64,000 nt of DNA from Diadema setosum (lineage: Eukaryota > Echinodermata > Echinoidea > Diadematoida > Diadematidae): NCBI RefSeq assembly GCF_964275005.1, contig NC_092694.1, forward strand, positions 35,476,967 through 35,540,966, written 5' to 3'. Each line of letters starts with the position of its first letter. Position 1 is the first letter of the stretch. The notes beneath the pieces are model-generated. The model did not search any database. It was not told the DNA's origin and saw only the letters and a list, made by a program, of their open reading frames with translations. Shown here in pieces: positions 12,622-46,123 of this stretch. The position numbers and the translations under genes were made by a program.

Positions 12622-12634
12622 GCCACTATGTGGC
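12622..12634 (+). promoter_or_regulatory. YRY-triloop stem, IL-17 A 3' flank
   Basis: GCCAC-TAT-GTGGC, 840 nt after the stop codon and about 230 nt before the polyadenylation signal, so probably in the 3' UTR. Vertebrate Roquin and Regnase-1 bind stems with Y-R-Y triloops in cytokine mRNAs. The same role here is inferred. AU-rich sequence (TATTTATTA) follows at about 12727. Confidence 0.5.
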
Positions 12635-12865
12635 GGTAATTTGTATCAACTTGAAGAAAAAATGTTCATATTAGTATAAAGATATCTTGTTAAATTTATT
12701 CTTACGTATTTCATTCATTTACTGTATATTTATTATTCTGTGTATATTAAGCCATGCAAATTTGCGTTTACTTTTTTTTTGAATAAGTTATATTGTTATA
12801 TGAAAATTTCATGTCTTACTGCTTCTTTCTTCAAACCTATGTCTATGCGAGTCTTTCTCGTGTTT

Positions 12866-12871
12866 AATAAA
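12866..12871 (+). terminator. Polyadenylation signal of IL-17 A
   Basis: AATAAA, 1,084 nt after the stop codon and near the end of the segment shared with gene D. Confidence 0.5.
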
Positions 12872-12900
12872 AGCTATAGAAAATGAAACAAAAGAAGATG

Positions 12901-13604
12901 TCTGCTTTGTATTGGTTTTGGAGCATCCACTAGATAATGAAGTTTTTAAGTGCGCGGTATCATAGCAACAGTGACGTAGAGAGTGTCATGATAAGATCTT
13001 CAAAGTTTGATTTTTTATGTTATTAAAAGTGAATCTGATCTTTAGGGAGAAACTTTATCCTTCCTCCCCCCTCCCGCTTGGCGATATGCTACAGAGAACT
13101 CCGTGAGAGTTTAGGTGCATTATGCCTAGATTATAGCGCCATCAGCGTCAGCAAAAAGAGTTACAAGTCCGTGTTGTCCAGCATGGAATCAATGCACCTA
13201 AGAACAGTCGGCACATATCAAGTCTATTGGTATTGTGGCTCTGGCTCTTCCTATCAAATGTGGCTAGCATTAAAGTTTCAATACGAGCTGGTGGTTATCT
13301 GAATGATAACAAGCAATGGGCGTGGGGTAGGGCATATCGTTTGCTTCAAAATCTTTTCTTACTCTCAGTCAACGAACAAATAATGTACCGCAGAATGAAA
13401 CAACATTATTACAATTGTATACCAGTATGTAGCATGGATATTAATGAAAATAACATTGTGAGAATTATGGAAAAATATAATCACTCTTATTATACAGACG
13501 CAGTGATATATCATATACAACAGTGTCAAAGCAGCAGTATTCATTATAATATGTATGAAGCAAGTAATATAGACTAGTAGTTTTGTGTTTGTTTACATTA
13601 CTCT
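12901..13604. other. Non-coding, nothing recognised
   Basis: Two overlapping open frames (13078-13577) have no recognisable domain, splice context or paralogue in the window and are treated as chance. Confidence 0.4.
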
Positions 13605-13992
13605 CCTTTTAAAGGGACTGTATATCACAGTACTGGTTGAGGTGGGGATTCATGTTTTGAACATTCTTAAGTGAGATTATGAGAAACCTCTTATGAAATA
13701 TGAAAGAGCTTGTAATTTTAAGAAGGATTCAACGTTTATTTGATGACAACTGGTTTTCAAATGTCCAAGATATCAAACAATACAAGGCGACAGGCCACGC
13801 CTTTTATTAGGATCTCTTTGTTTCCCTTTGTTTTTGGATATCGCAGCCATTTCAAAACCAATTTTCATCAAATAAACTTATTATACCCCTTATGCATTTT
13901 ATGCATTTTGACATCTCATAGAGTGGTTTAATATCTAGCAAAACGTTAAAAGCTAAATCCTCACCTCACCCAGAACTGTACACACCATCTAA
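13605..13992. mobile_element. Foldback MITE family M3, copy 1
   Basis: The element is nearly all inverted repeat. The left arm begins CCTTTTAAAGGGACTG and reads GGTTGAGGTGGGGATT; the right arm is its inverse (AATCCTCACCTCACCCAG). An almost complete second copy lies at 59811-60200, and a third, split by a LINE, at 32595-32840 plus about 36120-36237. No coding content. The TTTAAA-like ends suggest a TTAA-type target. Confidence 0.75.
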
Positions 13993-14229
13993 CATCAATA
14001 TCTTCTGTAACCGTCTATCCAAAACACCGTTTTAAACCAGCGCAATTCTTTGTCCATTTTTTTTCTTGATTGCTAGTCAATAACACCTTAATAAAACACA
14101 ATTTTAATATCTTTGGACAATATTGATTTTAACCCTCGTAAAAACTAACTGTCTTTGAAAACTAGTTAAGATCATTCCACAATAGTTGTGAATCTAACAT
14201 TGTCCTCAAATATTTATCAGTATATCAAA

Positions 14230-14450
14230 GTATACAAAGTGAAGTGATCATTTGCTGCTCACTCCATTAGAAGTCATGCTGCTCTTACACAGACAATGTG
14301 AAAATATGTTATTATAGCTGCTGCGTTTTTGTCTTGTCAACCATGACACAAATGATTATTGTTTGTTAGCATTCTTAGCCTGAATAAAACGAGTAAACAA
14401 CTGTACTGCACACAGTGATATACTTATGAAGAAAGCTTGCAACTCAGATG
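14230..14450 (+). repeat. Local direct duplicate, copy 1
   Basis: Matches about 17290-17490 with moderate divergence. Shared words include CACAGACAATGT, TTTGTCTTGTCAAC and GTTTGT followed by AGTCTGAAT-like sequence. Function unknown; the copies are 3 kb apart and in the same orientation. Confidence 0.5.
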
Positions 14451-14870
14451 GAATTTCCAATGCAGATTTCTAAAAAAAAAAAAACTCTTTGAGCGTCATT
14501 ATAGCTCGAGTGATTAGTTCATGTCGGGAAAACTATACATTCTTTCTGTAAAGAAAAAAAAATATAACAAAATTGAAAACCGAGAGCGCTCACCATTCGT
14601 TATTACCATATAGGATTCGTGATTCATGCAATTCGTGATTAATACAAAGAGTACACATGCGGTTTAAATGTTCTATACGAAGTTTCTAGTACACGTGAGT
14701 GTTTTTTGTTTTGTGTGTTTGTTTGATATATTGCATGTATAAGTTATACAAAATCATATCCACATTTCAAGCCCCCCTCCTTCCCCCCCCCCCCAAAAAA
14801 AAAACAACAAAAAAAAAAACAGATAAATTACTAGTATATAAAGTACACTATACTCTTAAAAAAATATATA

Positions 14871-15119
14871 TGAAGAGTTTGTTTGCAAAAACCGATAAGT
14901 CCATATTTGTCAAATGGAGATATTTGCGATTAAAGAACAAGAAAAATAAAGAGAATAATAAGAAAATTTTTGCTTCTTTTGACCATAACTTCAAAAATAT
15001 ACCTTTATATGTAGTGACCAATATATCATTTAAAAGGTATTATTTTGTACTTTATGACAGAGACCGTACTTCCAAATCTTCAGAAATGGACTTATCGGTT
15101 TTTGCAAACAAACTCTTCA
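14871..15119. mobile_element. MITE family M2, copy 1
   Basis: Inverted termini of about 35 bp (TGAAGAGTTTGTTTGCAAAA and inverse) flanked by TA. About 250 bp long, no coding capacity. Other copies are at 16267-16523 and 46827-47075. The TA target fits Tc1/mariner-type mobilisation. Confidence 0.8.
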
Positions 15120-15172
15120 TATATATTTTTCCCGAAAAACACTCAATTCATATTTGTGTTCTTATGTACAGA

Positions 15173-15174
<2 letters not shown>

Positions 15175-15219
<45 letters not shown>
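15175..15219. repeat. (TA)n microsatellite
   Basis: Uninterrupted TA dinucleotides. Confidence 0.95.
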
Positions 15220-15222
<3 letters not shown>

Positions 15223-15341
15223 GACATCCTCTCTACAAAATCTCTGAGTTTTCCTTTGATTTGCCTCTTGTCATTATCATTCTATATCTATGTTTGAACT
15301 TTTTTTGATAAACAACATTATCTTACATTATTATGTCATAT

Positions 15342-16035
15342 ATGTGACCGTGCACCTCAAAACGAACATAAAGTCGCACACACTGATTTTGCGTGAGGAC
15401 TGCAAATAAGTGAAATGGGTCAACCTAGCCGAATTTGACTTTTTCATATTTTCTGAAAGAGCGGGTCTTCTTTTACATTATGCTAAAATGTGGTATCATA
15501 AAACGGGCAGGAAAGTGTGTTTTTTTAGCAGTTTATCTCGAACACTTTTGGTAGAATAGTGTGATTAGGTGTGTCTTTAGAATCCCTTTTTCATTTCTGA
15601 AAAACCTTGTCCACACTCTTCACTTTCAACTGTAATAACTTTTGAAAGGATAGTGCTACTGCTTTGAAAAATGGCGTTAATTATGGACAGAATGTGTTAA
15701 TGAGGCATGCTTCATTTCAGTTTAATCTGATAATCCCTTCATTGTTGTTACCCTGGTGGTTTACTTCCTGTTTTTTGTCCCATTCATCGCACAGCCAGCA
15801 CGGTTTGGTAAAGATTATGCGCTTGAATAGACACTGTACTTCAGAGCCTCTTTTCTCAGTTCACACTTTTCCCGAGTTTGTGCTTTCTTTCCAATATTTA
15901 GATAGGTTAGGAGAGTCCATTTTATTTGAGTTATACATCATTTTAAAGCTTAAAGTCTGCTCTTTCAGAATATGGTCTTAACTAAAAAATCATGTCTGGC
16001 GACTTTTTGTTTGTTTTGAGGTGCAGGGTCACATA
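15342..16035. mobile_element. MITE family M1, copy 1 (about 0.7 kb)
   Basis: Ends TGTGACCGTGCACCTCAAAA and its near-inverse (TTTTGAGGTGCAGGGTCACA), flanked by TA. Three further copies are at 24940-25680, 37486-38248 and 50805-51494. Interiors are highly alike, so the family is fairly young. No transposase is encoded. The TA target fits Tc1/mariner. Confidence 0.85.
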
Positions 16036-16266
16036 TTATATATTATATATATATATGAGGAAAATTCGTGTAGACTCAAGTAACAGACAGAATAAAAAAC
16101 AAGTTCCTGGACAATACAGCAAGATTCATATGGGGTTTGATGTCAGATTACAAATTATACTTTTTATACAATAGTTACTGATGATTTGACGTGCGCATGA
16201 CGAAACGTTCCCCATACCTTCTTTGAAATAATCATTACTATGAAGTCAAAATTCTTACTGCTCATA

Positions 16267-16523
16267 TGAAGAGTTTGTTTGCAAAAACCGATAAGTCCAT
16301 TTTTGAAGATTTTGAAGTACGGTCTCTGTCATAAAGTACAAAAATTAATAATATCTTTTAAATGATATATATTGGTCACTACATATAAAGGTATATTTTT
16401 GCAGTTATGGTCAAAAGAAGCAAACATTTTCTTATTATTCCCTTTATTTTTCTCGACCTTTAATCGCAAAATATCTCCATTTGACAAATATGGACTTATC
16501 GGTTTTTGCAAACAAACTCTTCA
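16267..16523. mobile_element. MITE family M2, copy 2
   Basis: Same ends as the copy at 14871, in the opposite orientation, flanked by TA on both sides. Only about 230 bp separate it from the M1 copy. Confidence 0.8.
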
Positions 16524-16544
16524 TATATTTCCATCAAGGATTAC

Positions 16545-16840
16545 CAGGTGTATTATGATAACACAATACCATTTTGAATTAATGAAAAGTTTTATCCCAA
16601 AACAAGCTGACTCAATTCTTGTTAAGCTGAGATATCTCAGATTAAATCATCTAAAACAAAGTAATTAATAAAAAAGTACATGATATTCTCAATCATAACT
16701 TCTAGAATATACCTTGTCATGCCACAAGTTAGGTATTACTGGAAAGTTTGATTTTGCTCTATTTGATGATGAACTTACTTTGAAATGTTTAAAGATGGCG
16801 CTAATCTCTCTTTGCAATTAAACTCTTCATATACATATCT
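16545..16840. mobile_element. Old diverged M2-like element
   Basis: Ends in a decayed form of the M2 terminus (TTTGCAATTAAACTCTTCATA) and contains several M2-like words in the same order (ATATCTC, TCATAACTTCTAGAATATACC). Probably an ancient relative. Confidence 0.45.
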
Positions 16841-16843
16841 GCC

Positions 16844-16850
<7 letters not shown>

Positions 16851-16893
<43 letters not shown>
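16851..16893. repeat. (TA)n microsatellite
   Basis: TA dinucleotides directly beside the old M2-like element. Confidence 0.95.
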
Positions 16894-16899
<6 letters not shown>

Positions 16900-17289
16900 T
16901 ATCATACACGATATGTTAAATGAGACTCACCATTGTCCACATACAGTGTAGATGTCAGAAATTGTTTTATATTTTAAATTCAAGGGTATATGGTGTCCGG
17001 TCCTGCAGTAGTTAGACATTCAAAAATGTAGATATTAGAACATCAATGTTTCGACAATTGCAGAGTAAATGTTTAACATAATATAATATCCATAATTAAA
17101 TCAGTCCGGTGATGATCGCATCAAACCGCGAGACTGTAAGCGATTCGTACGCATATAACTCTTTACCATTTTATCATTTTTAGATTTTCAACTCTTTTTC
17201 TTGACTCGTCAATATAAAAAGCAATCAGAAACAAAACAACTCCTCCCCAATGTATGAAAGTCTGCCGTTACCGTTACTGGTAGCACTTG

Positions 17290-17490
17290 CTTTCCAAGTT
17301 GCACCATTTCACCTGATTATTGCATTCCACGTCAAGGTATCTTCACACAGACAATGTCAAAATGTGTTGCTTTCAGCTGCATTTGTATTTGTCTTGTCAA
17401 CAGTGATACAAAATAACGTTGTTTGTAACAAAAATAGTCTGAATGGAATCGGTATGCACACATACAGTTTGTAAAGTAGAATTACAGCTC
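17290..17490 (+). repeat. Local direct duplicate, copy 2
   Basis: Counterpart of 14230-14450. The flanking 17490-18040 is simple-sequence rich (C-run at 17769, CAAAA-type repeat at 17785-17830) and otherwise empty. Confidence 0.5.
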
Positions 17491-18041
17491 AACTGGATTG
17501 CTAGCTCAACTGGATTGGTAGCACGTTTGTTTGTTTGGTTTTTTTTTTCACAATCAAGTAAAGCTACAACGGGATAGGATTCTACAAGGACAGGATTCAA
17601 GTAAAGCTACAGCGGGATGCGTCTATTCTCGACACTCTTTAAATGTGACTAGACCGTGTTCTGAATAATGTATTCTTTCGGGGTGAGGACTGTCTGTAAA
17701 CCAGCAGCGTTCATCCTCCATTACGATCGGCGATCCATGAAAACATGGTACAAGAATAATGACCCCTCCCCCCCCCCCCAAAAAAAAAAACAAACAAAAA
17801 CAAAAACAAAACAAAACAAAACAAACAAACATCAAACCACATAATTATTTAAACGAAACTTTGAGATATACATGCAGAATGTATTTTATATTATGTTCAT
17901 TTAAATGACAATTGAATTTCATCGTGCTGTGTTTACTGTTATATGCAAGACTAACGCATATCAAACTAATATACGGCTTGTATATCATCTGAATGTAAAC
18001 GGTATACCCATTATCTCCATTCAGTTGACTCCAATTATCTT

Positions 18042-19476: not shown

Positions 19477-19570
19477 ACGAATTATGTCACATACAGTGCA
19501 AATGAATACACAAGATTGTATAATATATTGATAGTAGAATGAGGGTCGCTTTCTTGTAATTTTCGAACAT

Positions 19571-19613
<43 letters not shown>

Positions 19614-19889
19614 TAGACTAAGATAAGAATTACTCCTCAGCACACGCAGGGAAGCAGAAAATATTTTGCATGTGCTGTCCACGAAACATCAGCTACTGTA
19701 TGTAGGCTGTTGGACTGATCTCTCTCCTCCAGACATCTAAGAGACATTGCATTACTGCACTGACTGACTACAGCAGTTTGTGATGTCACAAACGAAGAAA
19801 AACATAGCAGAGGAAATGGTACCCTTATTATGTCAGTGACAAAGAAATTCCTGCAGAAATTGAAATTCTTTTCATATTATCTTTATACA
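19477..19889. other. Non-coding; poly-T tract
   Basis: Contains a run of about 28 T (19577-19606). No exon or repeat structure otherwise. Confidence 0.5.
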
Positions 19890-21250: not shown

Positions 21251-21345
21251 CATGGATACCCTTTAACCTTTCAATCGTCCAGGTGTTTTCCGAGCAATGA
21301 CTGATTTTGAAAGCGAAAGCAGAACAGCTTATTTGCTTTCGATTA

Positions 21346-22259
21346 CATTGCGTGTTTCCATGGATATGTAGGGAGCGAAACAACTTCGTATGGGCCTTCT
21401 TGGAAGAGTTTATCATGTCCGATCTGATGGCCCTCGACATGTAGCCTTGCGACTGACCTTAGAAGGTTGAACACATCATCTGAGAATGTATTGGTATCAG
21501 ACGATCGTTGCAAGGATCCTGTCACTACTACGTCATTAATGCAAACCGCTGATGTTGTAGCCACTTCCTTAATGACGGGAGATAAAACTGGATGAGGACC
21601 GATTTGCAGGAAGAAGTTGAATCCATCTTGCAGAAGTGTCTGAATGGCAGCCATGAATTTCACTCCCTGTCGAACGTTCTTCCACCAATACGTAGCACTG
21701 TTGGTTTCTCTGCAATCGGAGTAATTGCCTGCGACCGCTGAAACAAGGGGAACCTTCGGTGTCATGTTGGTAATGTGTTTCCCTTCAGAGAATTTTAGAA
21801 ACTTTAATTTCGACAACAGGGACTCGCGTATCTGTTCTTGTTGGAAGCTGTGGAAACCGTTGTTGACGTTGAGCATCTTACACTTTATTCCCTGTTCTCG
21901 AAGATTCGCTGTGAATTCATCTAGTGCCTTATAACCTCCTGCCAAGACTATTTCTGTCGGGCTGTTAATTGCTGCTACATCGATTCCACTATCGTATCGG
22001 CTGTTCTTCAGGCGTGTTTCGATGTCTTCAACGTCATGCAATATGGCTACCATCGTACCAATGCCATATGTCTTATTCAGCTCACACCCCCTAATGTAGA
22101 TGAGACGAACAGCATCATCAAGAGTCAAGTGCCCGGCAGCATGAGCTGCGGCTACTTCCCCGACGCTCTGCCCCACGACTGCATCAGGGCAGATTCCCCG
22201 ACAGCGGTAGTATTCAGTCAACCCAACTTGGACAGCAAAGAGGGATGGTTGTGCAACAT
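21346..22259 (-). pseudogene. Polyketide synthase remnant: acyltransferase C-terminal exon
   Basis: Third recognisable exon. It begins after TTTTCAG with VAQPSLFAVQVGL, and contains the acyltransferase nucleophile motif GQSVGEVAAAHAAG (Ser codon about 22165-22167; usual form GHSxG), the RLIYIRG arginine segment and the GFHS histidine motif. It ends LPTYPWKHAM followed by TAA. That PTYPW motif normally leads into the next domain. After the TAA the same frame reads SLLGKHLDD, resembling the HPLLG start of a dehydratase domain, then stops again. This suggests a premature stop in a once longer protein. A stretch of about 35 residues expected between this exon and the previous one was not found. 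Confidence 0.75.
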
Positions 22260-23457
22260 CTGAAAACGTTTTAAAGGTAAGCAGAAGCAGCAGCTTAGTT
22301 ATTCGGTGTGCCTAAGTCAACTGATCGTTTCCACGCCCCATCTCTTGTTACTTTGCTTGTTTTACATACCCACAAGAAACAAGAAACACCAAGTATATTT
22401 TAATCTAGTTATATATTCAACGCACCTATTACTGCACACGCACAGCACTTACTCACATCTCCCTTTTCCCTCTAATGAGTGATATTGCAATATCAAACAA
22501 ATAAAACTACTTTCCGTCAGAGGCAAACCTGAGATATATTCCCAATGAGGCCATCAGCCCAGTCAAGCCATGCTATGGTGATGGTCTCATGCTTCCTTAT
22601 TGAATCCTATGTACTGACTTTCCTGTATTATTATGCATCTAAAATGTTTTACAAAGGTTTCGTTATGTGCGTAGTATAAGCTGCACTTTTGTATTGCTCC
22701 TTTGCCATTTGGTTATCTTTTTTTTCTAAATTGTCACTTTCATGTAATTAATTTTGATTTGATTTGATTTTCAGCAGCAAAATGAATACGAATTCATATT
22801 CCATCGTCTTCTAAATCATTATTTGGTGTAGGTATGAATGAACCCAACACCACTGTAGTATTGTGTCATTAACAGAAGGCTGAATTGTCATAAGAAGGCT
22901 GAATGAGCCTTAAAATGAATAAAAGCGATACAATTTTATTTTTTTTTTTTTGGATTTTACCTGATTATATGAAATTGAGGAACAATAACATTGCTTTAGA
23001 GACTCACAATTGACCAACTCCAACTCTTAAGATTTTTATTCACACTGACCTGTTTGATTTATTTTCTCATGGTCATTTTCAGCCGTCAGGAGGTGTACCA
23101 GTGACCACGTTGCTCCACATTTTGTAAGTATTTTGTCAACGTTCTATCATCGGAAAGAAATCAAAAAAAAAAAAAAATATATATATATATAACTCTTACA
23201 CTTTTCTGAAGAGGAGGAACAGTGAGAGGAAAAATGATGTCAAAGCTACGCACTTTTTTTTCTCCTTTTCTCATGATATCACTTGTAAATAATATATACA
23301 TATAACATATATAATACGTTTTATAGAAGACAAACTGGTAATCTTTATGACAAGATAACAACAGAATTCAAGGCGCATTCAACTTCGTCAATGGAAACAA
23401 GTTCGTAGAGATAAGACGAAAAAGACAGAAAGAATAAATCTGATGATATGAGAATAC
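22260..23457 (-). other. Intron or spacer inside the PKS remnant
   Basis: AT-rich with (T)n and (TA)n tracts. A small exon for the missing acyltransferase linker was sought on the minus strand and not recognised. Confidence 0.5.
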
Positions 23458-24893
23458 CTGTATGACACTGCGGAATTTCGGTTCCTCTGCCATAAGTCGA
23501 CGAGCCATTCCCCACCACTGGGAGCCCATCCCGGGGTAGACGAAGACCAAGCGACGGACTGGACTTTTCGTATCCCTTGCCTGGCCCTCTATGACAGTAG
23601 TGGTGGCTTTGACATCTTGTTGGAGTTTAAGTCTGATTTGGTTCTTTGCATCACGTGGGGATCTTACGATGATACACACGCGATGGTCGAGATGGCTGGA
23701 CCGTACACCTGCAGTGTACATTGCGTTTTTGTGCAGAATGTCGTCATCTTTTATTACTTCTGACATGAAGGTTTCCCACTTCAGGAGGTATTGAGCGAGT
23801 GCGTCCCTGCTTGCTGCCGATAGGAACAGAACGGAAGGTTTCTCCGTGACTTTCCCATTAAGAAGTTGTGTTTGTCTCTTCGGAGGTTCAAAACCTTCCA
23901 GAACTATGTGAGCATTGACACCATCGAAACCAAATGAACTGCAACCAATCAATTGCTTGGCCCCACTTGGCCATTTAGTAATTTCGGTTGAAACACACAG
24001 GTTCAAGTTTGAAAGGTCGACGTTCTCATTCCCTGTACTGAACTGTACTTGCTTTGAAATCTTTCTGTGTTGCAAGCTTAGTGCAGCCTTGATTACACCA
24101 GCTACACCAGCTGCTGCATCAGCATGGCCAAAATTTGTCTTTAAGGATCCAAGGAAGAGCGGATTTTGATCTGGCCGACGTCTGAATCCCAAAGCTTCAC
24201 CAATAGCAATGGCGCCTGATGCGTCCCCGACACAACTACCGGCACCGTGCACGCCAAGGAACGCTACGTCTTCAGGGTTGACTTTGGCATCATAGCAGGC
24301 CTTTCTGAGGAGGGCAATCTGTGCTTCATAACCAGAATGACAGATTTCAGACGTTCGACCGTCGTTAGAGAATGCTCCTCCCCGAATGACCGCGTAAACC
24401 CTGTCTCCATCCTCAATGGCCCGTTTCAATGGCTTGAGAACAACAACCCCTACACCTTCCCCACGACAGCGGGCCGAGTCATCAGATGTTTTGCCTTTCT
24501 CTTCACGGGAGACAACGTCGCCCTGAGAGAAAATGCTTGCTCCACCTGCCACAGCTATGTTACACTCGCCTTTCCTCAGTGCCTTACATGCAAGAAGAAT
24601 TGCATCCAGAGATGACGAGCACGTCTTGTTCACCGTTGAGCTAGGTCCATGAAAGTCGTACTCGTACGATATTCTATTTGATACCATATATGAATTAACG
24701 CCATTTTTGGTGTACAGATTGACGTCGTTCATAGGAACTCCAACAAGGAGGCTGATCTCACTCGGTGCCACGCCCATATACACCCCGGTGCTCGATCCAC
24801 GTACCGACTGGGCTGGTATTCCTGCATCTTGAAGGGATTCCCACACCACTTCGAGAAGGATCCGGACCAGGGGGTCCGTTTTGTTTGCCTCTT
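23458..24893 (-). pseudogene. Polyketide synthase remnant: ketosynthase core and start of acyltransferase
   Basis: Second recognisable exon, 478 uninterrupted codons. Acceptor TTTTCTCAG, donor CAG-GTATTC. In order: RILLEVVWESLQDAG, the ketosynthase nucleophile in NKTCSSSLDA, the first histidine in GVHGAGSCVGD (usual HGTGT), the second in KTNFGHADAAAG, then SSFGFDGVNAHIVLE, a linker, and the acyltransferase start VFVYPGMGSQWWGMA. The catalytic Cys-His-His set is complete. Animal type I PKS enzymes build polyketides such as echinoid pigments from malonyl units. With no downstream reductive, dehydratase or carrier domains in the window, activity as a full synthase is unlikely. Confidence 0.85.
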
Positions 24894-24939
24894 CTGAGAA
24901 AAAAAAAAAGAACATGCAGTATATCATATACTTGCTATA

Positions 24940-25384
24940 TGTGACCGTGCACCACAAAACGAACAAAAAGTCGCACACACTGATTTTGTGTGAGGACTGG
25001 AAATAGGTGAAATGGGCTGCCCCGGGGGCAACCTAACCGATCTTGACTTTTTCATATTTTCAGAAAGAGCAAGTCTTCTTCTACATTATGCTAAAATTTG
25101 GGATCACAAAACGGGCAGGAAAGTGTGTTTTTTAGCAGTTTATCTTGAACATTTTTTTTTTTTTGGTAGAATAGTATGATTAGGTGTGTTTTTATCGTCC
25201 CCTTTTCATTTCTTAAAAACCTTGTACAAACACTTCACTTTCAACTCTAATATCTTTTGAAAGGATGATGCTACTGAAAGTTAGCATCAATTATGAACAG
25301 AATGTCTGAATAAGGCACGCTCAATTTCAGCTTAATCTGATAATCCCTTCATTGTTGTTACTCTGGCGGTTTACATCCTGGTTT

Positions 25385-25423
<39 letters not shown>

Positions 25424-25680
25424 TTTGTCCCATTCGTTGCACAGCCAGCGCGGCTTGGTAAAGATTTAGCGCTTGAATAGACACAATTCAGAGCCTCTTT
25501 TCTCAGTTCACACTTTTCCTGAGTGTGTGTTTTCTTTCCAATATTTCAATAGGTTAGGAGAGTCCGTTTGATTTGAGTTATACATCATTATAAAGCGTAA
25601 CGTCTGCTCTTTTAGATTATGCTCTTAACTAAAATTTTATGTCTGATGACTTTCTGTGCGTTTTGTGATGCAGGGTCACA
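24940..25680. mobile_element. MITE family M1, copy 2 (in a PKS intron)
   Basis: Same termini as the copy at 15342, flanked by TA. It is expanded by a (GTT)n microsatellite at 25386-25421 and is more diverged inside than copies 1, 3 and 4. Its place between two PKS exons shows that the intron was hit after the family arose. Confidence 0.85.
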
Positions 25681-25852
25681 TATGTACAATGCGATTTGAC
25701 ACGCAGGTTCTATAGTTAAGTTTGCATTGCATTGGTAAAGTAAAGAAATTATTTTTGTTTGTTGCAAAAACTGGCAGAAATACCTCCTAATGTCAATTTG
25801 CCATAATATAACGGAGAAAACGTATCACTATGTACCTTTAAAAATACGATAC

Positions 25853-26156
25853 ATGGAGATATTTTGAAGAATTCTCTATCAAAGTATTCTGGATCCTTTC
25901 TGAGGTATCCATCACAGTTGTGCATCTTCCAGCGACACTTTTCACTAGGGGAAACGTAGGACACTTCGTCAGAGGAATCGGAAGGGATAAATGTTGTGCA
26001 GTCCAGACCCTTGGTAAACACATCCCAGAACTTGTAGACATTGTTAATGCTATCGGCGAATCGACATCCGATGCCAACGATGGCGACCTTGTCATCGACC
26101 GACATCCCCGGGTCTTTTAAGGAGTCCGTCATACTTTCTTCGACTGTAGCAACCAT
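25853..26156 (-). pseudogene. Polyketide synthase remnant: N-terminal exon of ketosynthase
   Basis: Encodes VAIVGIGCRFADSINN, then W..GYLRKDPEYFDREFFKISP, the conserved start of a ketosynthase. The first ATG is at 26156. A CTACAG just inside could instead be a splice acceptor, so the true start is uncertain. The expected junction is after KISP, at a GTATCG donor. Joining there to the next exon gives TAA where other synthases have a Gln or Arg codon. An alternative donor (AAAG-GTACAT, exon end 25836) would need a shifted acceptor. This is a further sign of decay, though not proof. Confidence 0.7.
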
Positions 26157-32840: not shown

Positions 32841-35800
32841 TTTTTTTTTTCATGTTCCATATTCCACATTTCATACAAGTTTTATATTCCATTTGATTTG
32901 AAGCAGAAATGTTTCTCACACAATGGTCAGTTTGAACCAATAATGCACAAATGTAAGGACATATAATTGGCGTGTAATATGAGGAACCCACTAAAAAGCA
33001 AAGCTTGTAGGATGTGGGCTCCAAAAATATAACATAGGTTTTAGTACAGTATATTAATGTCAGAAGTGAGGTAACATGAAAAATTCAAAATATCGAGAAT
33101 ATTACAATGTTTACGGAATGTACAAGGTACAGTTTATAATGTTTATGATCAACTAATGGTATAAATGCTAAGAAAAGTAGCAAGTTGATCAAACTAATGA
33201 AGTTATCCGAGCAAGGCATCATTTGAGTATATGCAAAAAAAAAAAATAAAAAATTCAAGTGATTACGGCAAAATAATTAAACATACGATTTCAGAAACTT
33301 GGCTTTGAGATTTTTCTTAAAGGAGCTTAAAGAACTTGAGTGCAACCGTACCGAATCTAACTCATTCCAAAAAGATGGGCCGGTCGATGTAATTTTCTTA
33401 AGGGCTAAAACTGTACGAACAGGGGCAAAATGATAGGATTCACTTGTCTTGTAGAACAAGTATGAATGTCACTGTTTTTCACAAACATTGAGGAAAACAG
33501 GGTCTAGGGCAATTACCCCCTGGGCAATTACCCCGCACCCTTCCCCTGGCCCAAATCCTAATCCTAATCCTGAACCTAACCCTAACCCAAACTCCTAACC
33601 CTAAACCCTAACCCTAACCCTAACCCAAACTCCTAACCCTAAACCTAACCCTAACCCTAATCTTTACTCTTACCTTACCACTAACCAGTATTTGGCCGGG
33701 GGTAATTGCCCTCCGGGGGTAATTGCCCGGATACGAGGAAAAAATACTAGGAAGGTCACCAGTATTCAACTTATACATGAAAATTCCAACATGATATCAA
33801 TACCAATCAGAAATTTTTAACAATTTACTTGAAAAAAACAATTCATCAGTGTGATCAAAAAATTGTGCTCGATTTATAATTCGCAAGGCCTTTTTCTGAA
33901 CCAAAAATAACGAATCAATTTTAGTCTTTGAGCAATTCCCCCAGGCTAATATTCCGTAATTCAAGGTAATAACAAAGTTGTATAAAGAGAATGCAATATT
34001 GGCTTTGGGAAGAGATATTTCAGTTTGTGAATAATTCCAACATTCTTGCACAACAATTTACATAAAAAATCAACATGTACCTTCCATGAAAGGTTACTGT
34101 CAATATAAATACCTAAAAAAAAAATTGTTGAATCTATTTGATTTAACTGTAAACTGTTCATTAAAACTAAACCTGGAAGAGATTTTATTGTGTTACTGAA
34201 AACCATATAATTGGTCTTATTTATGTTAAGTGACAATTTATTTGCCTGAATCCACTCAAACACCAACTTAAGTTCATTATTCAAAGAATCGAGCAAAACA
34301 TAAGGATCTGAGCGAGAATAAAAGAGACTTGTATCATCTGCAAACAGAAGAAAAGACAGCAGAGAGGATGAGTTCCGGGAGTCATTGATGTATAAAATGA
34401 ATAACAGAGGACCTAAGAGGGAGCCCTGTGGAACACCACAACAAATCGAGTTTATATCAGATTCATGATTATTTACGGAAACAAATTAAGTTCGACCTGT
34501 AAGATAACTTCTGAACCACTCCAAGGCCTTTCCACGAATACCGTAATGATTTAGTTTCAAATACAAAAGAATTTCGTGATCTATTGTGTCAAAGGCCTTG
34601 GAGTAGTCCAGAAACAAACCGACTGTATGCGACTTTGTGTCTATAGCTCTTACAACTTTCTCAACCAGTAGTAATATAGCATGGGTGGTTGCATGTTTTT
34701 TCCGGAACCCGAATTGATTATCAGCTAAAATATCACATTCGTTTACAAATTTGATTAAACGATTATAAATCACCTTCTCAAGTAATTTAGAAAAGGATGA
34801 AAGAAGCGATATTGGTCGATAATTTCCTAACTCATTCTCTCTGCCTTTCTTATAGATTGGAATAACTTTAGCAAATTTCATTTTAATGGGCACAGTACCA
34901 GTTAATAAAGATAAATTCAAAATGTGAACTAATGGTAATAGTATTTCGTTTAAAATACATTTCATGAGGTGATTAGAAATCCCATCATGACCGGTACTCT
35001 GGGGCTAAAGAATTGACAATATCTAAGACCTCTGTTTCAAGCACTGGAAGAAAAAATAAAGACTGTGGATTGGAATTTAGTAGGTAAGAATGAATGGGTC
35101 TGTGTACAGATGAAATATTGCGGGCCAGATTCGGACCAATATTAACAAAAAAGAGTTGAATGCTTTCGCAATTTCCACATCATCTGTAAAATTTTTCCCT
35201 TCACAAAGGATATTATCAATAATACCCTTATTTACACGTTTATGAATAACGCTATTTATTACATGCCAGGTAGATTTTGCATCTGACTTGTGTTGTTCAA
35301 ACAAAGAACAAAAATAATCTTTTTTTTTTTTTTTTTGCTTTACGCAACAGCGACGTAAGAGTATTCCGATATTTAATGTACTTTGATTTATTCAAAGCTG
35401 TATTACGTGATTTATATCTGTAAAATAAAGTATTTTTTCTGTTTATGGATCTAAGTAAAGCTTTTGTTATCCAGGGTGAGCGCGGAACTGTTTTGTAGTT
35501 TCCTCTTTGATTTCTTAAAGGGAAATGCAAGTGATACAAAGGTACCAAAATATTCATAAATCTGTCGTACGCGTCATTCGGATCAGTGGAGTTTAAAACC
35601 TCATTCCAATCAATTTCGGAAAACTTTGTTTGAACAGCTGGATATTATGATCGGAGAACACTCGTGATTGCGATAAATTTTTACAGACCTTTTGTTTATG
35701 CGACTCAGGTATAGTAGAAATGGAAGAAACTATAACGGAAAAATGATCTGATATGTCGGTAATAGCGATACATTGATCATCATAATCATGGCTGTTTGAA

Positions 35801-36773: not shown

Positions 36774-36817
<44 letters not shown>

Positions 36818-38726: not shown

Positions 38727-38733
38727 TATATTG
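38727..38733 (+). promoter_or_regulatory. Altered TATA region of IL-17 B
   Basis: TATATTG replaces the TATAAAA of the other three genes, while the flanking conserved words (ATCCGGTAAGC before, TTTTCTCCA after) remain. Confidence 0.5.
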
Positions 38734-38905
38734 TCCGTGTGGTGTTTTCTCCACTATCTTAAGCCTGCGTGTGAGGATATCCAGTGAGTTACATAGAGCA
38801 TTTCTCGCCAGGAAAGATACATCGACGTCTACCTACATTCGAAATTTTTCGAAAACCTTGCAATAGAAAATCCACAGGTAGAAACGAAAAGACATCAATA
38901 ACAAA

Positions 38906-39961
38906 ATGAATGTGAGTCTTAGTGCCTCTTTGCATTTCGTGTAAAACTGTATCAATTTGTATGTCTTTGTGCTGTACTGCATTACGAAATGGTTTCTTTG
39001 CGACGGTAATCCGCATTGCAATAGATTTGACTGTCTGAGTGCACTTTTTAGCCAGTGAAAACCAAGAAAAGAGTGTGTTGCAATTAAAGCTCTTTTCTAC
39101 TCGGTTCTTTCAGTTTATCAAGTGTTTACCAGGACATTCTATTCTGATGTAATTTTGCAAAAGCCTTGTGTGATAAAAAAGAAGAAGAAATGTGTTTATC
39201 ATAATTACATAATTTTACTTAATTGAATAATGCAACATTTAACTCTTTTTGTACTGTGGATGTTGATAGTTTTTCAGTTAATTTCTGCTTAATATAATTA
39301 TCTTCTCCCTAAAAAAGCAATTGGTGGGAGAATTCCCTTTTTTCATCATGTGAGTATAAACTTATCAATTATTTATCTCCTTGTTGCTTTGTCTCATCAG
39401 ATCCTGTTTCTACTTACGTCGATAGTTGCAGCCATCTTCCAAACCACCTTATCGTCACCAGTCCCGAGCACCTCTCAGACATGTCGGCCAATAGATGCAG
39501 CTGATTCCCATCGACGAAAGATAAACGCAAACTTGTTCTATCCTAAAGCGGCAGCATTCGCCGTACAAAGCTTTAACCTCTCAACCGGTGACATGGGCTT
39601 GACCGATACGCCAGGTTGTCCGTTCGATGGGCTCTCCAGCTCGCCAGACTGTCCCGTAGGAGTGAAACCAAACCCTGGAAGTCCTGAGATCGTGAACCAA
39701 GACACTTCGTGTCCATGGACCTACGTGGAATGTTTCGATGCTGATCGTATCCCAATGGCGATCACTATGGCTCAGTGAAAGTGTTCTGCATGTCTGGACC
39801 CTTACACAAACAAAGTGGATCCCAACCTTCGATGTCAACCTGTAATGTACAACATGAAAGTCCTTCAGAAGACACAGTGTGTGGATGGCCACTTCAGATA
39901 TGAGCAGAAGACCCTTCAAGTCCCCGTGTCATGTGCCTGTATGCGCACGAGGCGCGTCTAG
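38906..39961 (+). pseudogene. IL-17-type cytokine B, probable pseudogene
   Basis: Same two-exon design: Met-Asn exon (38906-38911, donor GTGAGT), intron 38912-39400, second exon 39401-39961 of exactly 561 nt. The frame is intact except for one TGA (39776-39778) where A, C and D have TGT, the first cysteine of the CQCSAC segment. Downstream the frame continues to the normal end (VPVSCAC..RTRRV). The kB and TATA sites are also altered. Together these point to a recent loss of function. A short secreted product, or a selenocysteine reading of the TGA, cannot be excluded by sequence alone. Confidence 0.85.
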
Positions 39962-40805
39962 GAATGATTTTTCTTTTTTTTTTTTAATGGACATCGCTTT
40001 CCCCGTATTCACTATTTAATGTATTTATTCTTTGAGTTGTATTGTATTCGTAATATTATAAAGTATTCACACATACTTTGCTTTCCATTCGCCTGGAAGA
40101 TTTATATATCCAAAACAACTGTTTTGCTGAGCATCCTAACGTCAACACCGTGATATTGATAAATTGGATTAATTCATCAGTTTCTAGCAGCCAGACAAAA
40201 AACAAAAACAATAGAACAACAACAACAACAAACAAACAAGCAAAACAAACATTGAGCTCGGACGTACAGTTTCTGCGCCTTGGTATTTTGCATTTTGGTA
40301 GTCTGTTATTACTGGTGAAGAAGCCGATATATTAAACGGCGGGATGTCATTTTGATCATTTTCTGATCTAGTAGTATGGAAGTAGATTCTAAAACCTTGA
40401 TACAGATTTAACCTGTTCTAGTAAGAAAACTGAAATATTTATTGTTATCTTCTAATACCTGATACTAATAATCAGTCGCTGTGTGGTGGAATGTTTGTCT
40501 ATTACTCCTGTGGAGCAATATCCTTAAATTGTCGCTCTGTATACGCATATTGGAACATACGATGTTGATGATCATCAAATGCGTATCATTTACGTGCAAT
40601 GACTTACGAGGAATGAGATGATTGAAAGCTCTCTTTAACTGTTTACAAGTGATATTTTGTAAATTTCATGTGGACAATGTATTTTTATGAAGTGTCGTTT
40701 TGTTTTTTTTAACTATGTACTCGCATAATGTATTCCGATAATATTTGCTTATTGCATCTACTCTATTATTGAGTGCCAGATACAGAGTCAAGTATGTTAC
40801 AAGTA

Positions 40806-40818
40806 ACCACTATGTGGT
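40806..40818 (+). promoter_or_regulatory. YRY-triloop stem, IL-17 B 3' flank
   Basis: ACCAC-TAT-GTGGT: the outer pair is A-T instead of the G-C in other copies, a compensatory change that keeps the stem. It lies 845 nt after the stop codon. Confidence 0.5.
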
Positions 40819-40990
40819 AATTTGGTTATCATCTCGCAGACAAACTATAGCCATGAGTACAATGATAAATCTTTTTTTTTTCCTACGGTTATCAACTCAT
40901 GGACTGCTTATCTGTTCTAAGTGTTATATGTAGCAGTTATGATACTTCAGTGTTGAGTTATCAAATCTCGTGTGAGACCTTTCGATATTC

Positions 40991-40996
40991 AATAAA
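40991..40996 (+). terminator. Polyadenylation signal of IL-17 B
   Basis: AATAAA about 175 nt beyond the stem-loop, as in gene A. Confidence 0.45.
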
Positions 40997-40999
40997 CGC

Positions 41000-42996
41000 A
41001 AGAGAAGTTGCACGAAAAAAGAAAAAAGACTAGCCCATTAATCAGTTATTGTGTCTACCCTTTGTTGTGCGAATTACCAGAGGACCTTTAAAACAGTATA
41101 TTTCTTCTGAAAACATGATGAAGTAAGTAAAGAATAATACCACAGATTTATTCGTACACACGTATTCTTACGCAAATCATTGAATAATACATGTAACCCA
41201 CACTCAACAAAACAGGACCATACCAGTTACCATCCAACATCAAACAGTAAAATTTTCATCTTTCAATGTCCCATAACTTTATAAGGTAATAAGCAATGTA
41301 TACATAGGTATCTAATATCAACACACTACCACAAATATGTATATGTACAATGATAATGCAGGAACCGATGAAATTGTATGAAATTTTATGAAAATAATCT
41401 TGGATCATCTTCGTTGCGTTCATTTGCTTTACAACGATTAAAAAAATATGGTCATGATGGTGTAGAATTCCAACCTACCTTTGATTCTTTGCCCTGTGCT
41501 CATGTCGCAACGTTTCAAAATTTGATGGAAATATCTCTTAAACGGGTCACACTCATCGTTCCCTCTTTTTTAACAGATGAGACATCCATTCTTTATTTAG
41601 GATAGGGAATTTTTGTGGAAAGTTATCCTTAAAAAAATTAACGATCTTTGTAGACCATTATAAGTCTTTTTAATTTCGCTTTCGCAACAGATTGTTCAAA
41701 ACAATGAAAAAAGTTAAGTTTTCGAATTCATAAATTGCTTATACCTTATACATATATATAACTCTTAAACATTACTTCATTCGTAAGTCACTCGTTATCA
41801 TCCGCTCTTACTGTGTACTGTTTATGGCCTTTGATAACACAGGTAAACTGTGTAATTGAAAAATGACTTGCCTCTAACTGACTTTTAGTTTTTAGTTACA
41901 TTCAACACAAACATGTTCAGAAAACACAAGTAAAATAAGCACGCAGGTATATATATATATATATGTATATATATAATGTACATATGATATATGAATACCT
42001 AAGTACGCTTAAATATGTATATCCATATGAGTTGACACCAACACAAGAGAGCAAGATCTGAAACCTAACTTGAAAATTAATCTTAAATTGAATGAAATCG
42101 ATATATGCTTTCATTTTCAAACTACTTCAAACGAAATTGCAGACTGCTCGTATCCCAACAACTTTATTGAGGGTGATTACCGGACATTCGAAATACTTTA
42201 ACAGTGCGTTTTGAACCTCACATGAATTGTTCAGGTGATAAAGCTAAATGAAGTTCTAGCTTCGCAACTCTTCTCGCATCCAGAAATTCCCGTTTTTAAG
42301 GTATTGATTTGATTTATTGATTCCTGTATCATCATTGTACATGAACATAAATGCATATGTATATATACATATTATTGGAGGCATAGGCACCCTACATATA
42401 CATGAACATCAGTGACTAACAAAATATTTTTTCTTCATTGCCTTTACACAATGTACAGCAGAAACGTAATAGCAATACAACCGTACAATGAATAATACAG
42501 TAGGGCTACAGCTTAAGCGTGGCTTGATATGCGTGCAGCCCTCGTACATATTACACATAGAAAAAATAGGAGAGAGAGGGATGACTTGCGTAGAGATAGG
42601 ATAGTAGAAAGGAAAAAGGGAAAGGAGAGGTTTGTCTGATTTCACTAAAGGCTTACACAAAGTTAGTTCACCTGGATCATTGATCAGTAAGGCATGACAA
42701 AATACTTCTCACCGAGGTATAGGTGAACAGTGACAGTTCATGGTTGGTTACATGATTACATGATAGATTACATAATATGAAATGCGGCGATATTTATACG
42801 AAGGAATTTCACGTATTATACACGAACAATGACAGCGAAATTACTGATATTGAAAGAGTAACATTGTTTTTACAGGTTTCCTAAAAAAAATACAAGGACT
42901 TTAAACTTTGAATTTCAGAATTTCAGTCATTGCTCATATCAATGCCAGTGTTATCTTATACATTTTTTAAAAACTATTAAGGATCAAAGGTGGGAA

Positions 42997-43035
<39 letters not shown>

Positions 43036-43445
43036 GGTAACACCTCGTAGCTATTACATACTGAGGTGCTCTCCTTTGCAAAACATTTTGTTAAGACCAC
43101 ATTCATGTCGAAAATGATGCTCGACGTACGAATGAATGATCCACTCAGATGTAAATCAATGGGCACAGGTTGGAGGACTCCTAAATATAAATCCTCGGTG
43201 ATACGTGTACAATTCAGATGACGGTACGCGACGACTTCGTCCAGGCAATGCATGTCTGATAATCCAACAAGTGTTTATCAAGCAAGTCACAGCTTCAATG
43301 TAGCAACGCCCACATAAATATGAATAAAGCAGGCCACATTTGTAGATGACTCGACTTTCCACCTGCAATCATATCTACAGACCTTATCTCCACAAGATAC
43401 AGTGTATTACATGTCAGCAGGTAATATGGATCTAACTATAACAAG
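41000..43445. other. Non-coding; microsatellites and a possible LINE tail
   Basis: (TG)n at 43000-43031 and a TA-rich tract at about 41948-41977. Around 42300-42400 the minus strand reads GTAGGGTGCCTATGCCTCC, then A/T-rich sequence, like the 3' tail of a LINE, but no coding part was found. Confidence 0.35.
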
Positions 43446-43640
43446 TCACTTAAGAGCGACGTTACTCTCAGAACGAATATGTTGGAGGTACAATTTCTCA
43501 GTGTTGCTTTGATCGGTTCCTTCATCCATCTGGAACTTTCCGTAAGGATCACCAACCTTTAGATTACAGAGCTTTCCACTCATCCATGACTCTTGTCTAC
43601 TTTTATGCGTGACCTCATTTCTAAAAATAGCCCACACAGA
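43446..43640 (-). CDS. Possible terminal exon of an unknown gene
   Basis: On the minus strand a TTTTTAG acceptor-like site (about 43625) is followed by an open block reading NEVTHKSRQESW, KLCNLKVGDPYGKFQMDEG and LQHIRSESNVALK, then a stop. The composition is protein-like, with mixed charge and no repeats. No family was recognised. Upstream exons would have to lie opposite IL-17 C or beyond, which lowers confidence. It may be chance. Confidence 0.2.
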   Translation of the reverse strand, partial: SVWAIFRNEVTHKSRQESWMSGKLCNLKVGDPYGKFQMDEGTDQSNTEKLYLQHIRSESNVALK

Positions 43641-43661
43641 ACAATAAACATGTACTGTCAT

Positions 43662-44139
43662 TTCATGTAAAGATATAGTTCAACAATGCAGTGTAATTGT
43701 ACAAAAACAAACGAATGGGGGGGGGGGAATCATACGGTTGGACACAAATTCAGAAAGTTGCTGATTTGAAAGTGTCACATTATAAGGTTTCGTTACATAA
43801 CATTTAATCAATGCTTCATTACTGTACTTTTCCTATTTTTTTTTTTTTTCGGTGCCTTTCTTATTTCCATTATGATTCAGATAAAAACTTCAACCTTGCC
43901 GGTTCATGAAGATTTAAGTCCACGTATCATGATCAAGTAGTCAAACAATAGAGCAAAAAAAAAATGTGCACGCACAGTGTCGAAGAGAGCACTTTGTACG
44001 GGGAGGGGGAGGGGGAGGTTTTATGGAAGGGAAATCCATGTATTTATTCCTCTATGTAATGGCATTTAAATAATTCTGAGACGGTTATCAAGACGAGTAT
44101 ACCCGCAAAAGAGATCCAATTATAGAATTAGAAAATCTG
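43662..44139. other. Non-coding upstream flank of IL-17 C
   Basis: Simple-sequence tracts (G-run at 43718, T-run at 43838, G-rich at 44000). No exon. Confidence 0.5.
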
Positions 44140-44149
44140 GGGAATTCCC
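44140..44149 (+). promoter_or_regulatory. kB-type site in IL-17 C promoter
   Basis: GGGAATTCCC, 180 bp before the TATA box, matching genes A and D even though much of the sequence between has diverged. GAAACTAGGAAG follows at 44249-44260. Confidence 0.65.
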
Positions 44150-44319
44150 ACTCAGCATTTGGGTAGTTTCACATTTGAACAAGTACCTTGGTGATTAGCT
44201 AATTAGTAGCTAAAAATGGTACTCGCTTAATCTCTACGGTAGTTAATAGAAACTAGGAAGTACTGAGACACGTTGCATATTCTTGCAGTCGACGTTATAT
44301 CCATCCGGAAAGTCGATGG

Positions 44320-44326
44320 TATAAAA
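44320..44326 (+). promoter_or_regulatory. TATA box of IL-17 C
   Basis: TATAAAA, 207 bp before the start codon, in the conserved CCATCCGG...GATGG context. Confidence 0.7.
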
Positions 44327-44526
44327 CTGGGCAGTGCGGAGTTTTCTCCATCATCTTCAATCTGCCTGCGATATCATCCACTCAACATCAGCCAGCACTT
44401 CGTCTCAAGCCTCTATCAACCGAAGAAGATACTTTGTTTTTGACACTGACTGACTTGAAGGGCTCGGAAGCAGCGAAGTCTTAAAGCCTCAACGAAAAAG
44501 AGGAGACCGTTAAAATCATCCTCAAA

Positions 44527-45314
44527 ATGAACGTAAGTCCAAACTATATAGCTATTTAAGGACATTTTATCATCTATGTTTTCCATTCTTATGCATTTCA
44601 TTACCAAAGTTTTTTTTTTTCCGACGTATGATCAAAATTCAGAATACGCACACATAGCAGATGATTTGATACAATAATTATCGTATTCTACTGAAAATGA
44701 CAATGTTAATGTATGGTCCCTTTTTCTCAATGCCCTTTGTATTTTCTCTACAGACTCTATACCTCTTTACATCAGTGATTGCAGCGATATTCCAAACCGT
44801 CATGTCTTCACCAGTCCCTGTCACAACTCAGACATGTCTGCCCATAGACGCAGCTGACTCCCATCGCAGAGATCTGAACTCCAATCTCTTCTATCCCAAA
44901 GCCGCGGCATTCGCCATACAAAGTTTCAACGTCTCAACCAGTGACATGGGCTTGGCCGATACGTCAAGCTGTCCGTTTGATGGCGTCTCCAGCCCGCAGG
45001 ACTGTCCCGTAGGAGCGAAACCAAATGCTGGAAGTCCGGAGATTATCAACCAAGACGGCTCATGTCCATGGACATACGTGGAATGCTTTGACCCCAACCG
45101 TATCCCAATGGCGATCACTATGGCCCAGTGTCAGTGTTCGGCATGTCTGGACCCTTACACACACGAAGCGGATCCAAACCTTCGTTGTCAACCTGTGATG
45201 TACAACATGAAAGTCCTGCAGAAGACACAGTGTGTGGATGGCCACTTCAGATACGAGCAGAGGACCCTTCAAGTCCCCGTGTCGTGCGCATGTATGCGCA
45301 TGCGGCGTGTCTAG
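44527..45314 (+). CDS. IL-17-type cytokine C (two exons)
   Basis: Secreted IL-17-family cytokine of 188 residues. Exon 1 (44527-44532) codes Met-Asn with a GTAAGT donor. The short intron ends at CTACAG (44753), and exon 2 (44754-45314) is 561 nt. Signal peptide TLYLFTSVIAAIFQT, sequon FNVST, then CPWTYVECFDPNRIP, MAQCQCSACLD, VLQKTQCVDGHFRYE and VPVSCACMRMRRV, with all knot cysteines. The intron (221 bp) is less than half the length in the others and its sequence differs, while the protein stays close to A and D, which suggests selection on the coding part. A frame starting at 44697 is intronic read-through and not the start. Confidence 0.93.
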
Positions 45315-45575
45315 GGGTGCGTTTTCTAGTCACAAGACAGGCTCTCACTTAATGTATTCACTATTTCTCATAATACTATTTATTCTTTGTCTTGTTATGT
45401 ATTCGCAATATAATGTCTATAAGAAATGCCTTGCTTTAATATATTCTCCTGCCCAAATTGCTCGTGAATCTAGTTTTCGTGAACACCTTGACGTTGATAA
45501 GGAAACCTACAATCTCAGCAACATTGATATGTCTTTTCTACAGCCAGACAACAAACTATGAACCTCCGCAGTAAA

Positions 45576-45577
<2 letters not shown>

Positions 45578-45616
<39 letters not shown>
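45578..45616. repeat. (TA)n microsatellite in IL-17 C 3' flank
   Basis: TA dinucleotides between the stop codon and the stem-loops, probably inside the 3' UTR. AU-rich TATTTATTC lies at 45377-45385. Confidence 0.9.
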
Positions 45617-45618
<2 letters not shown>

Positions 45619-45965
45619 GTGCAGTAATTCTACTATTTATTTGTTCTAGTAGGATAAACGAAGGTTTTCTCGACATTTTCAGGGTTTCTTCTATAAACAA
45701 AGAAATCTGAGATATTTTCGTTATAGTGTTAGTCAATATGCCGTCTTGCCTAGCACTGACGTGGTGAAATATTTATAGAGAACATTTGTAGAGAAACATC
45801 AGAAAATCTGAACATGTTGGTCATCACATTCTGCATATGTGATGACGTACATGATATGAGTATATCATGACCTAAGACAATTAGGAAAAAACAACAACAA
45901 CAATGCTAACTCACTCTATTGCTGTTGTTCGACATGCATTATTTTTACAACATTCTTTATTTAAA

Positions 45966-45978
45966 TGTCCTATGGACA
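45966..45978 (+). promoter_or_regulatory. Second TAT-triloop stem, IL-17 C 3' flank
   Basis: TGTCC-TAT-GGACA, identical to the copy in gene A; beyond one mismatch the AAA/TTT flanks can extend it. Confidence 0.5.
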
Positions 45979-46110
45979 ATTTGTTTTCGTTTATGCCATG
46001 CAATTTCTCTTGTTTGTAATCACGCACATTAATGTACGTGAGTATCAAATTTTCATCTACTCAATGTTGAGTGCAGAAATCGAAGTCAAGTTTGACGTTA
46101 CGCTTTAGTA

Positions 46111-46123
46111 GCCACCATGTGGT
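46111..46123 (+). promoter_or_regulatory. YRY-triloop stem, IL-17 C 3' flank
   Basis: GCCAC-CAT-GTGGT (outer G-T wobble), 797 nt after the stop codon, preceded by the shared TTTGACGTTA word. Confidence 0.5.

Follow-up and report, generated by a model that had tools for sequence, protein, structure and literature searches.

The window analyzed here—64,000 nucleotides of the sea urchin Diadema setosum, C10:35476967-35540966, where C10 denotes its contig—holds part of a cluster of nine interleukin-17 (IL-17) loci, each of which is followed on its 3' side by a conserved island of 67 to 79 nt. The island bears three ordered parts: a first palindrome (palindrome 1), in most copies a motif resembling the cAMP response element (CRE), and a short core that can close into a hairpin. 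This observation is real and specific to the cluster as far as tested, and the sequence of the island is under constraint. The island is probably a regulatory switch; the preferred reading is a sequence-specific 3' cis-regulatory module, and action at the level of DNA is slightly favoured. An earlier note on this DNA had described the core as a stem closed by a pyrimidine–purine–pyrimidine (YRY) triloop and had proposed that it acts as a decay element of the IL-17 mRNAs.

The six copies of CCAC-YRY-GTGG described in that note are all present in the window, at 640, 783, 12623, 40807, and 46112 on the plus strand and at 54021-54011 on the minus strand. In this order, their loops are TGT, CAT, TAT, TAT, CAT, and TAT and their outer pairs G-C, G-C, G-C, A-T, G-T, and T x C, as had been reported. 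A seventh CCAC-N3-GTGG at 51825 is not preceded by GTA, and its loop reads ACT, or AGT on the opposite strand. A chance origin of the palindrome is ruled out by window shuffles and genome pattern counts: allowing up to one mismatch, the 11-mer matches nine times in the window as compared with 2.88 ± 1.90 times in shuffled sequence, and none of 100 shuffles reaches nine. Within the 912.7 Mb of the genome, the looser core GTANCCACYRTGTGG shows 18 matches—11 in the 121-kb IL-17 cluster, where 0.0009 would be expected at the background rate, and 7 elsewhere—with 7 for the reversed pattern used as control. The strict pattern GTANCCACYRYGTGGNAA has nine matches, all of them in C10:35477602-35598761, and one in its reversed control. 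These genome pattern counts are lower bounds for repeats.

In the cluster region examined (C10:35447000-35630999; 184 kb with 33 bases missing), the loci A–C and I lie on the plus strand and D–H on the minus strand. Searching 2.4 kb past each stop codon, one sense-strand core is found at every one of the nine loci, its outer base 797 to 1484 nt past the stop. The distances given by the earlier note for the first three genes are right, with the outer stem base 840 (A), 845 (B), and 797 (C) nt past the stop. The core of D marks the far end of this range at 1484 nt, and an inverted-repeat, miniature inverted-repeat transposable element (MITE)-like insert of ~575 nt (54344..54918, 69% in its reverse self-match) separates it from the stop of D. 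The stems at 639 and 782 are accounted for by relic X, a decayed tenth IL-17 locus adjoining the window just to its left (C10:35476690-35476925). Its two cores, X1 (GTAGCCACTGTGTGG, 636..650, plus strand) and X2 (GTAGCCACCATGTGG, 779..793, plus strand), belong to a tandem duplication of ~143 nt and follow the last base matched in the relic by 681 and 824 nt. At C10:35459-35461 kb, there are three more CCACYRYGTGG matches that have no GTA context; they appear to be a repeat of a separate kind.

A genome search with PF06083 returned 21 matches, 9 in the cluster and 12 elsewhere. A covariance model of the island, applied to the 3' side of the 12 other IL-17 exons over about 3.9 kb each, found nothing with E < 1; this range is counted from the matched exon, and an element beyond further exons would escape it. 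Across the window, the cluster, and the 12 other loci, only its nine source islands fall below E 1, with X1 (E 1.7), X2 (E 2.3), and the locus L047 (E 2.5) above this value. The claim that the stem lies downstream of every IL-17 gene hence stands for the window (4/4) and for the cluster (9/9) but fails at the matches elsewhere (0/12 in the range covered). As far as tested, the island would belong to this IL17-1-like subfamily and not to IL-17 generally, where we take the cluster as the IL17-1-like subfamily of the sea urchin. One of the 7 core matches outside the cluster, at C10:20563070 (L044:5271), is a bare exact core ~3.6 kb past another IL-17 match, with 0.0004 expected. Palindrome 1 and TGACGT are both missing from its vicinity, and C-G would be its outer pair; a role as start codon was discarded, as the reading frame opened by its ATG runs for 15 codons only.

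The four islands of the window illustrate the common architecture. Island A (12573..12639, plus strand) consists of the palindrome ACTCA..TGAGT, TTTGACGTTA, and the core GTAGCCACTATGTGG (12619..12633, plus strand), which contains the stem of the earlier note; it resembles the other islands, and the 3' flanks otherwise barely align. Island B (40756..40823, plus strand) carries the core GTAACCACTATGTGG (40803..40817, plus strand) and is devoid of TGACGT. Island C (46055..46128, plus strand) contains the core GTAGCCACCATGTGG (46108..46122, plus strand), which is identical to that of X2; in the comparison of the flanks, the islands of C and D match with E 1.3e-11. Island D (54005..54082, minus strand) comprises the palindrome TACTCAA-TGT-TTGAGTA, GTCAAGTTTGACGTCA, and the core GTATCCACTATGTGG (54011..54025, minus strand). 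In general, palindrome 1 has the form ACTC..GAGT with invariant arms and a spacer of 6 to 7 nt. The middle motif is GTCAAGTTTGACGT(C/T)A or a relative of it, with the CRE-like TTTGACGT(C/T)A in most copies. The spacing between the motifs differs by non-multiples of three, on which grounds coding sequence was rejected.

The constraint on this architecture was assessed by sequence comparison within this one genome. Twelve columns are invariant in all 11 copies, and three of these—GTA—lie outside the hairpin. Every locus had its core by CCACYRYGTGG, the only pattern with which the cluster copies were gathered, and GTA is kept although it lies outside this pattern. GTA, although unpaired, varies no more than the stem does; hence, sequence rather than shape appears to be conserved. 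Among the recent copies D–H, 9 of 77 island columns vary, compared with 212 of 325 upstream and 263 of 672 downstream (island against downstream alone, Fisher p 6e-7 with columns treated as independent). Only two of 19 columns vary in the core plus its tail, both in G, and 7 do so in the 50 columns from the island end onward. For A, B, C, H, and I, the islands are 68 to 85% identical, and the flanks from stop to island range in global identity from 0.016 below to 0.042 above shuffled sequence. Local comparison does find similarity in these flanks, as the best score of each of the six A–D pairs lies above those of all 60 shuffles, and further similar pieces are a 22-nt stretch (A–C) and a 273-nt stretch farther out (A and I). 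Judged by these alignments, the flanks are remotely homologous with few similar pieces, and only the island is common to all nine.

We would tentatively place first the reading of the island as a downstream module of enhancer type that acts on the DNA level and contains a basic leucine zipper (bZIP) site of the CREB/ATF type. Such a reading is suggested by the cluster specificity, the nine sense copies at nine genes, the constraint in D–H, the conservation of sequence and not of shape, and TGACGT. The CRE/bZIP (CREB-ATF) consensus is approached by TGACGTCA in islands D–H and by TGACGTTA in A and C, but this likeness covers one part of the island only. TGACGT is found on either strand in eight of the nine gene islands—in I on the opposite strand only—out of 107 occurrences on both strands of the 184 kb, and 5 of the 10 TGACGTCA sites of this region lie in islands D–H, which constitute one lineage. 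That TGACGT is kept in eight of nine gene islands and that two intact cores persist at relic X argues against a role on RNA only. Mechanistically, palindrome 1, TTTGACGT(C/T)A, and the core GTANCCACYRTGTGG, placed in this order 3' of each cluster gene, would be read by one or more sequence-specific proteins. The CREB/ATF-type bZIP site would let the gene copies respond together to infection, and the island might also be transcribed as distal 3' untranslated region (UTR). We infer all three components of this reading, that is, regulation, DNA rather than RNA as the substrate, and the class of the factor.

Other DNA-binding factors were considered and rejected. The core, written as CCAC-Y-A-n-G-T-G-G-C, fits nearly all letters of the CTCF core consensus CCASYAGRKGGC; however, a T replaces the near-invariant G at the seventh core letter in all 11 copies, and there are few copies in the genome. 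For RUNX, the sense-strand TGTGGT occurs only in B and C.

Several observations weigh against the bZIP-type DNA module. TGACGT is absent from B and X1. Upstream of the island, the D–H alignment contains another quiet stretch, with 6 of 50 columns variable, and a similar block, no more than about 130 nt past the stop, is common to A, B, and C, so that the island is not the sole conserved piece. For the pairs A–I and C–I, global identity is no higher in the islands than in the flanks. The arms of palindrome 1 are kept with spacers of two lengths, 6 and 7 nt, as would be more fitting for an RNA loop than for a rigid DNA dimer site. Finally, A, B, C, E, F, and H have their next AATAAA at 151 to 243 nt past the stem, a spacing in keeping with a location in the mRNA.

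The last two points lead over to an RNA element in the distal 3' UTR, at which an RNA-binding protein would read the sequence and perhaps small hairpins and thereby set the stability or translation of IL-17 mRNA. We regard this as possible, though rather unlikely. The poly(A) signals speak for it. A, B, C, and H are free of AATAAA from stop to stem and have one no more than 260 nt beyond the stem; the first past the stop are at 12866..12871 (A), 40991..40996 (B, with ATTAAA ahead of the stem), and 46276..46281 (C), all on the plus strand. Measured from the end of the stem, they follow at about 232, 173, and 153 nt, in agreement with the spacing that the earlier note had given. The chance of such a pattern is 0.08 to 0.13 per gene in dinucleotide shuffles. 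For at least four of five lineages (A, B, C, H, and I, with H standing for D–H), this gives P about 3e-4; counting X as a failing sixth raises it to 9e-4. In D, E, F, and G, AATAAA precedes the stem, and with one of these in place of H the count becomes three of five with P 6e-3. AATAAA precedes the stem in I as well, where the next one follows 361 nt past it. Given this pattern, the island probably lies in the distal 3' UTR of several genes, a placement that allows an RNA role but does not prove one.

On the structural side, the outer pair of palindrome 1 is kept in all nine islands as U-A, U-G, or C-G, the loop of the core is always YRT, and folding of 23 nt in isolation yields the core hairpin in 11/11 copies (-2.7 to -7.1 kcal/mol). 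Folding of the islands is unremarkable, however, with z-scores from +0.15 to -1.32 in the six islands tested. Covariation in the core is at chance, as 158 of 500 shuffles reach its score; so it is in a second test (129 of 500 shuffles), in which a slide by +3 scores higher. The compensatory change that had been pointed out in B, from G-C to A-T, is real, but the same pair is open in 6 of the 11 copies, and the four inner pairs are constant throughout. Every copy lies on the sense strand, in line with an RNA element, yet this orientation is also expected from descent. Moreover, the two intact cores of X adjoin a decayed gene: the chance of keeping 13 core bases at 35% divergence is ~0.004, a rough figure for a relic that was itself found via the motif.

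As a separate observation, palindrome 1 of island I (L018:7691-7710) has a C-G outer pair and, if an inner G-U stays open, the loop GUUGUU. This loosely resembles the loop GUUYUA of the alternative decay element (ADE) in the part of PMC11609897 that describes it.

A more specific RNA reading is that of the earlier note, in which a YRY triloop stem of Roquin or Regnase-1 type damps IL-17 mRNA; we consider it improbable. Part of its observational basis stands: a conserved element lies behind the cluster genes, for several of them in a probable distal 3' UTR, ten of the 11 copies have a YAU loop and the remaining one UGU, and Roquin/Regnase-type domains are encoded. For the constitutive decay elements (CDEs) of Roquin, passages of PMC6294493 and PMC11609897 describe YRN or YRU triloops, with which the YRT loops of all 11 copies agree, and in UCP3 CDEs YAU loops are stated to be the most efficient (passage in PMC6294493). 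The island further shares with CDEs a short stem and probably, as the AATAAA placement suggests for several genes, a place in a cytokine 3' UTR. What finds no support is a structure kept by compensation. According to the same passages, CDEs prefer stems of 6 to 8 bp, are impaired at 5 bp, and leave the stem sequence free, Roquin being without preference for it in PMC6294493; compensatory changes would thus be expected. Here, the continuous stem is 5 bp at most (5/11 copies) and 4 bp in the others (6/11), with extra pairs in B, C, and G possible only past a mismatch or bulge. Its inner sequence never changes, its outer pair is often broken, GTA stands in front of it, and the core stem is part of the predicted fold in 5 of 11 islands and missing in D–I. 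As the loop fits a CDE but the rest does not, the core should not be filed as one.

For Regnase-1, a passage of PMC7145602 describes 3' UTR stem-loops of Py-Pu-Py type as the targets, and cleavage assays without strong preference for sequence or structure are quoted in one of PMC9371910. The loop class, the setting at immune genes, and encoded RNase_Zc3h12a domains are similar here; in distinction, the element is known from DNA alone, and its stem lies outside the predicted fold of islands D–I. The genome matches RNase_Zc3h12a at two loci (C9, C19) and ROQ_II at a single one (C17), so that decay machinery could exist in this animal. A precedent comes from Caenorhabditis elegans ets-4, where a conserved 115-nt piece of the 3' UTR contains two stem-loops on which Roquin and Regnase homologues act (as described in part of PMC9371910). 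This piece, F1S (ADE + RCE, with RLE-1/REGE-1), resembles the island in its conservation, its length of ~100 nt, its 3' UTR setting (probable for the island), and a pair of potential hairpins close to each other. Its first stem-loop is the hexaloop ADE instead of a triloop core, however, and action on RNA is shown there only. Palindrome 1 and the YAU core might together make a two-hairpin decay module with sequence-specific Roquin/Regnase contacts, and damping of IL-17 by YRY hairpins would then predate vertebrates—a version that we hold to be just as doubtful as the single decay stem. Among known elements, an Rfam search of the window gave no family reaching the gathering score and a search of a phage collection gave no match; among open-licence PMC papers, a literature search found no title or abstract start on the element or on IL-17 mRNA decay in sea urchins.

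An element for 3'-end formation or transcription termination ahead of the poly(A) signal is quite unlikely. The AATAAA 151 to 243 nt past the stem start in six of nine genes would suit it, but the distance varies, being 361 to 463 nt in D, G, and I, and no island turned up at the 12 other IL-17 matches in the 3.9 kb or so covered on the 3' side. An absence of function, with the island left by a mobile element, gene conversion, or mere inheritance, has hardly any probability and is already disfavoured: the genes are tandem duplicates with patchy homogenisation and weak homology in parts of the flanks, but variation in D–H is below that of both flanks, the islands are detected by local comparison amid mostly unmatched flanks, and the core is not dispersed, with 11 of 18 matches in one cluster and the remaining 7 no more than the reversed control gives, in a genome count that covers exact cores.

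In the window, exon 2 of gene A lies at 11210..11782 (plus strand; Pfam IL17 E 7.9e-18), gene B at 39389..39961 (plus strand; from the genome search with PF06083), exon 2 of gene C, in its part aligned to A, at 44751..45314 (plus strand; E 3e-18), and exon 2 of gene D at 55506..56078 (minus strand; E 5.5e-18). Gene B bears a single in-frame TGA inside the IL-17 domain and is otherwise open. Genes A and D (9609-11775 and 58519-55513) are identical to 85% in the 5' flank and to 94% in the coding exon; this homology stops at the stop codon, as though homogenised only that far. B and C remain similar for about 100 nt beyond the stop. Of relic X, sequence from upstream of exon 1 (64–67% over 109–163 nt) and the first half of exon 2 remain, the latter with frame breaks and 59–67% nucleotide identity to the genes; its cysteine-knot half gave no match. 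Seven of the nine genes have an upstream ATGAA(C/T)|GT(A/G)AGT as possible exon 1. In this they resemble the SpIL17-1 genes, which have two exons, the first of which encodes Met plus one residue, stated as glutamate in a passage of PMC5457136; the possible exon 1 here would differ from it by an asparagine codon.

Between IL-17 A and B, the window also contains pieces of a polyketide-synthase-type gene (ketoacyl synthase and acyltransferase domains; 21343-26156, minus strand). A fragment of a retroelement reverse transcriptase lies at 34486-34965 on the minus strand (RVT_1, E 3.1e-18), and telomere-like CCTAAC repeats occur internal to the sequence at 33550-33660.

In the purple sea urchin, the IL17-1 genes show the strongest rise of any gene on bacterial exposure and are attenuated within hours, as reported in parts of PMC5457136 and PMC5660111. 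Green fluorescent protein placed in SpIL17-1 exon 1 within a bacterial artificial chromosome rises and falls like the endogenous gene (passage in PMC5457136), a result that does not decide between DNA and RNA. An island at all nine cluster loci provides a handle on the joint on and off switching of this cytokine array. If the reading as an RNA element were true, damping of IL-17-type cytokines would be an ancient trait.

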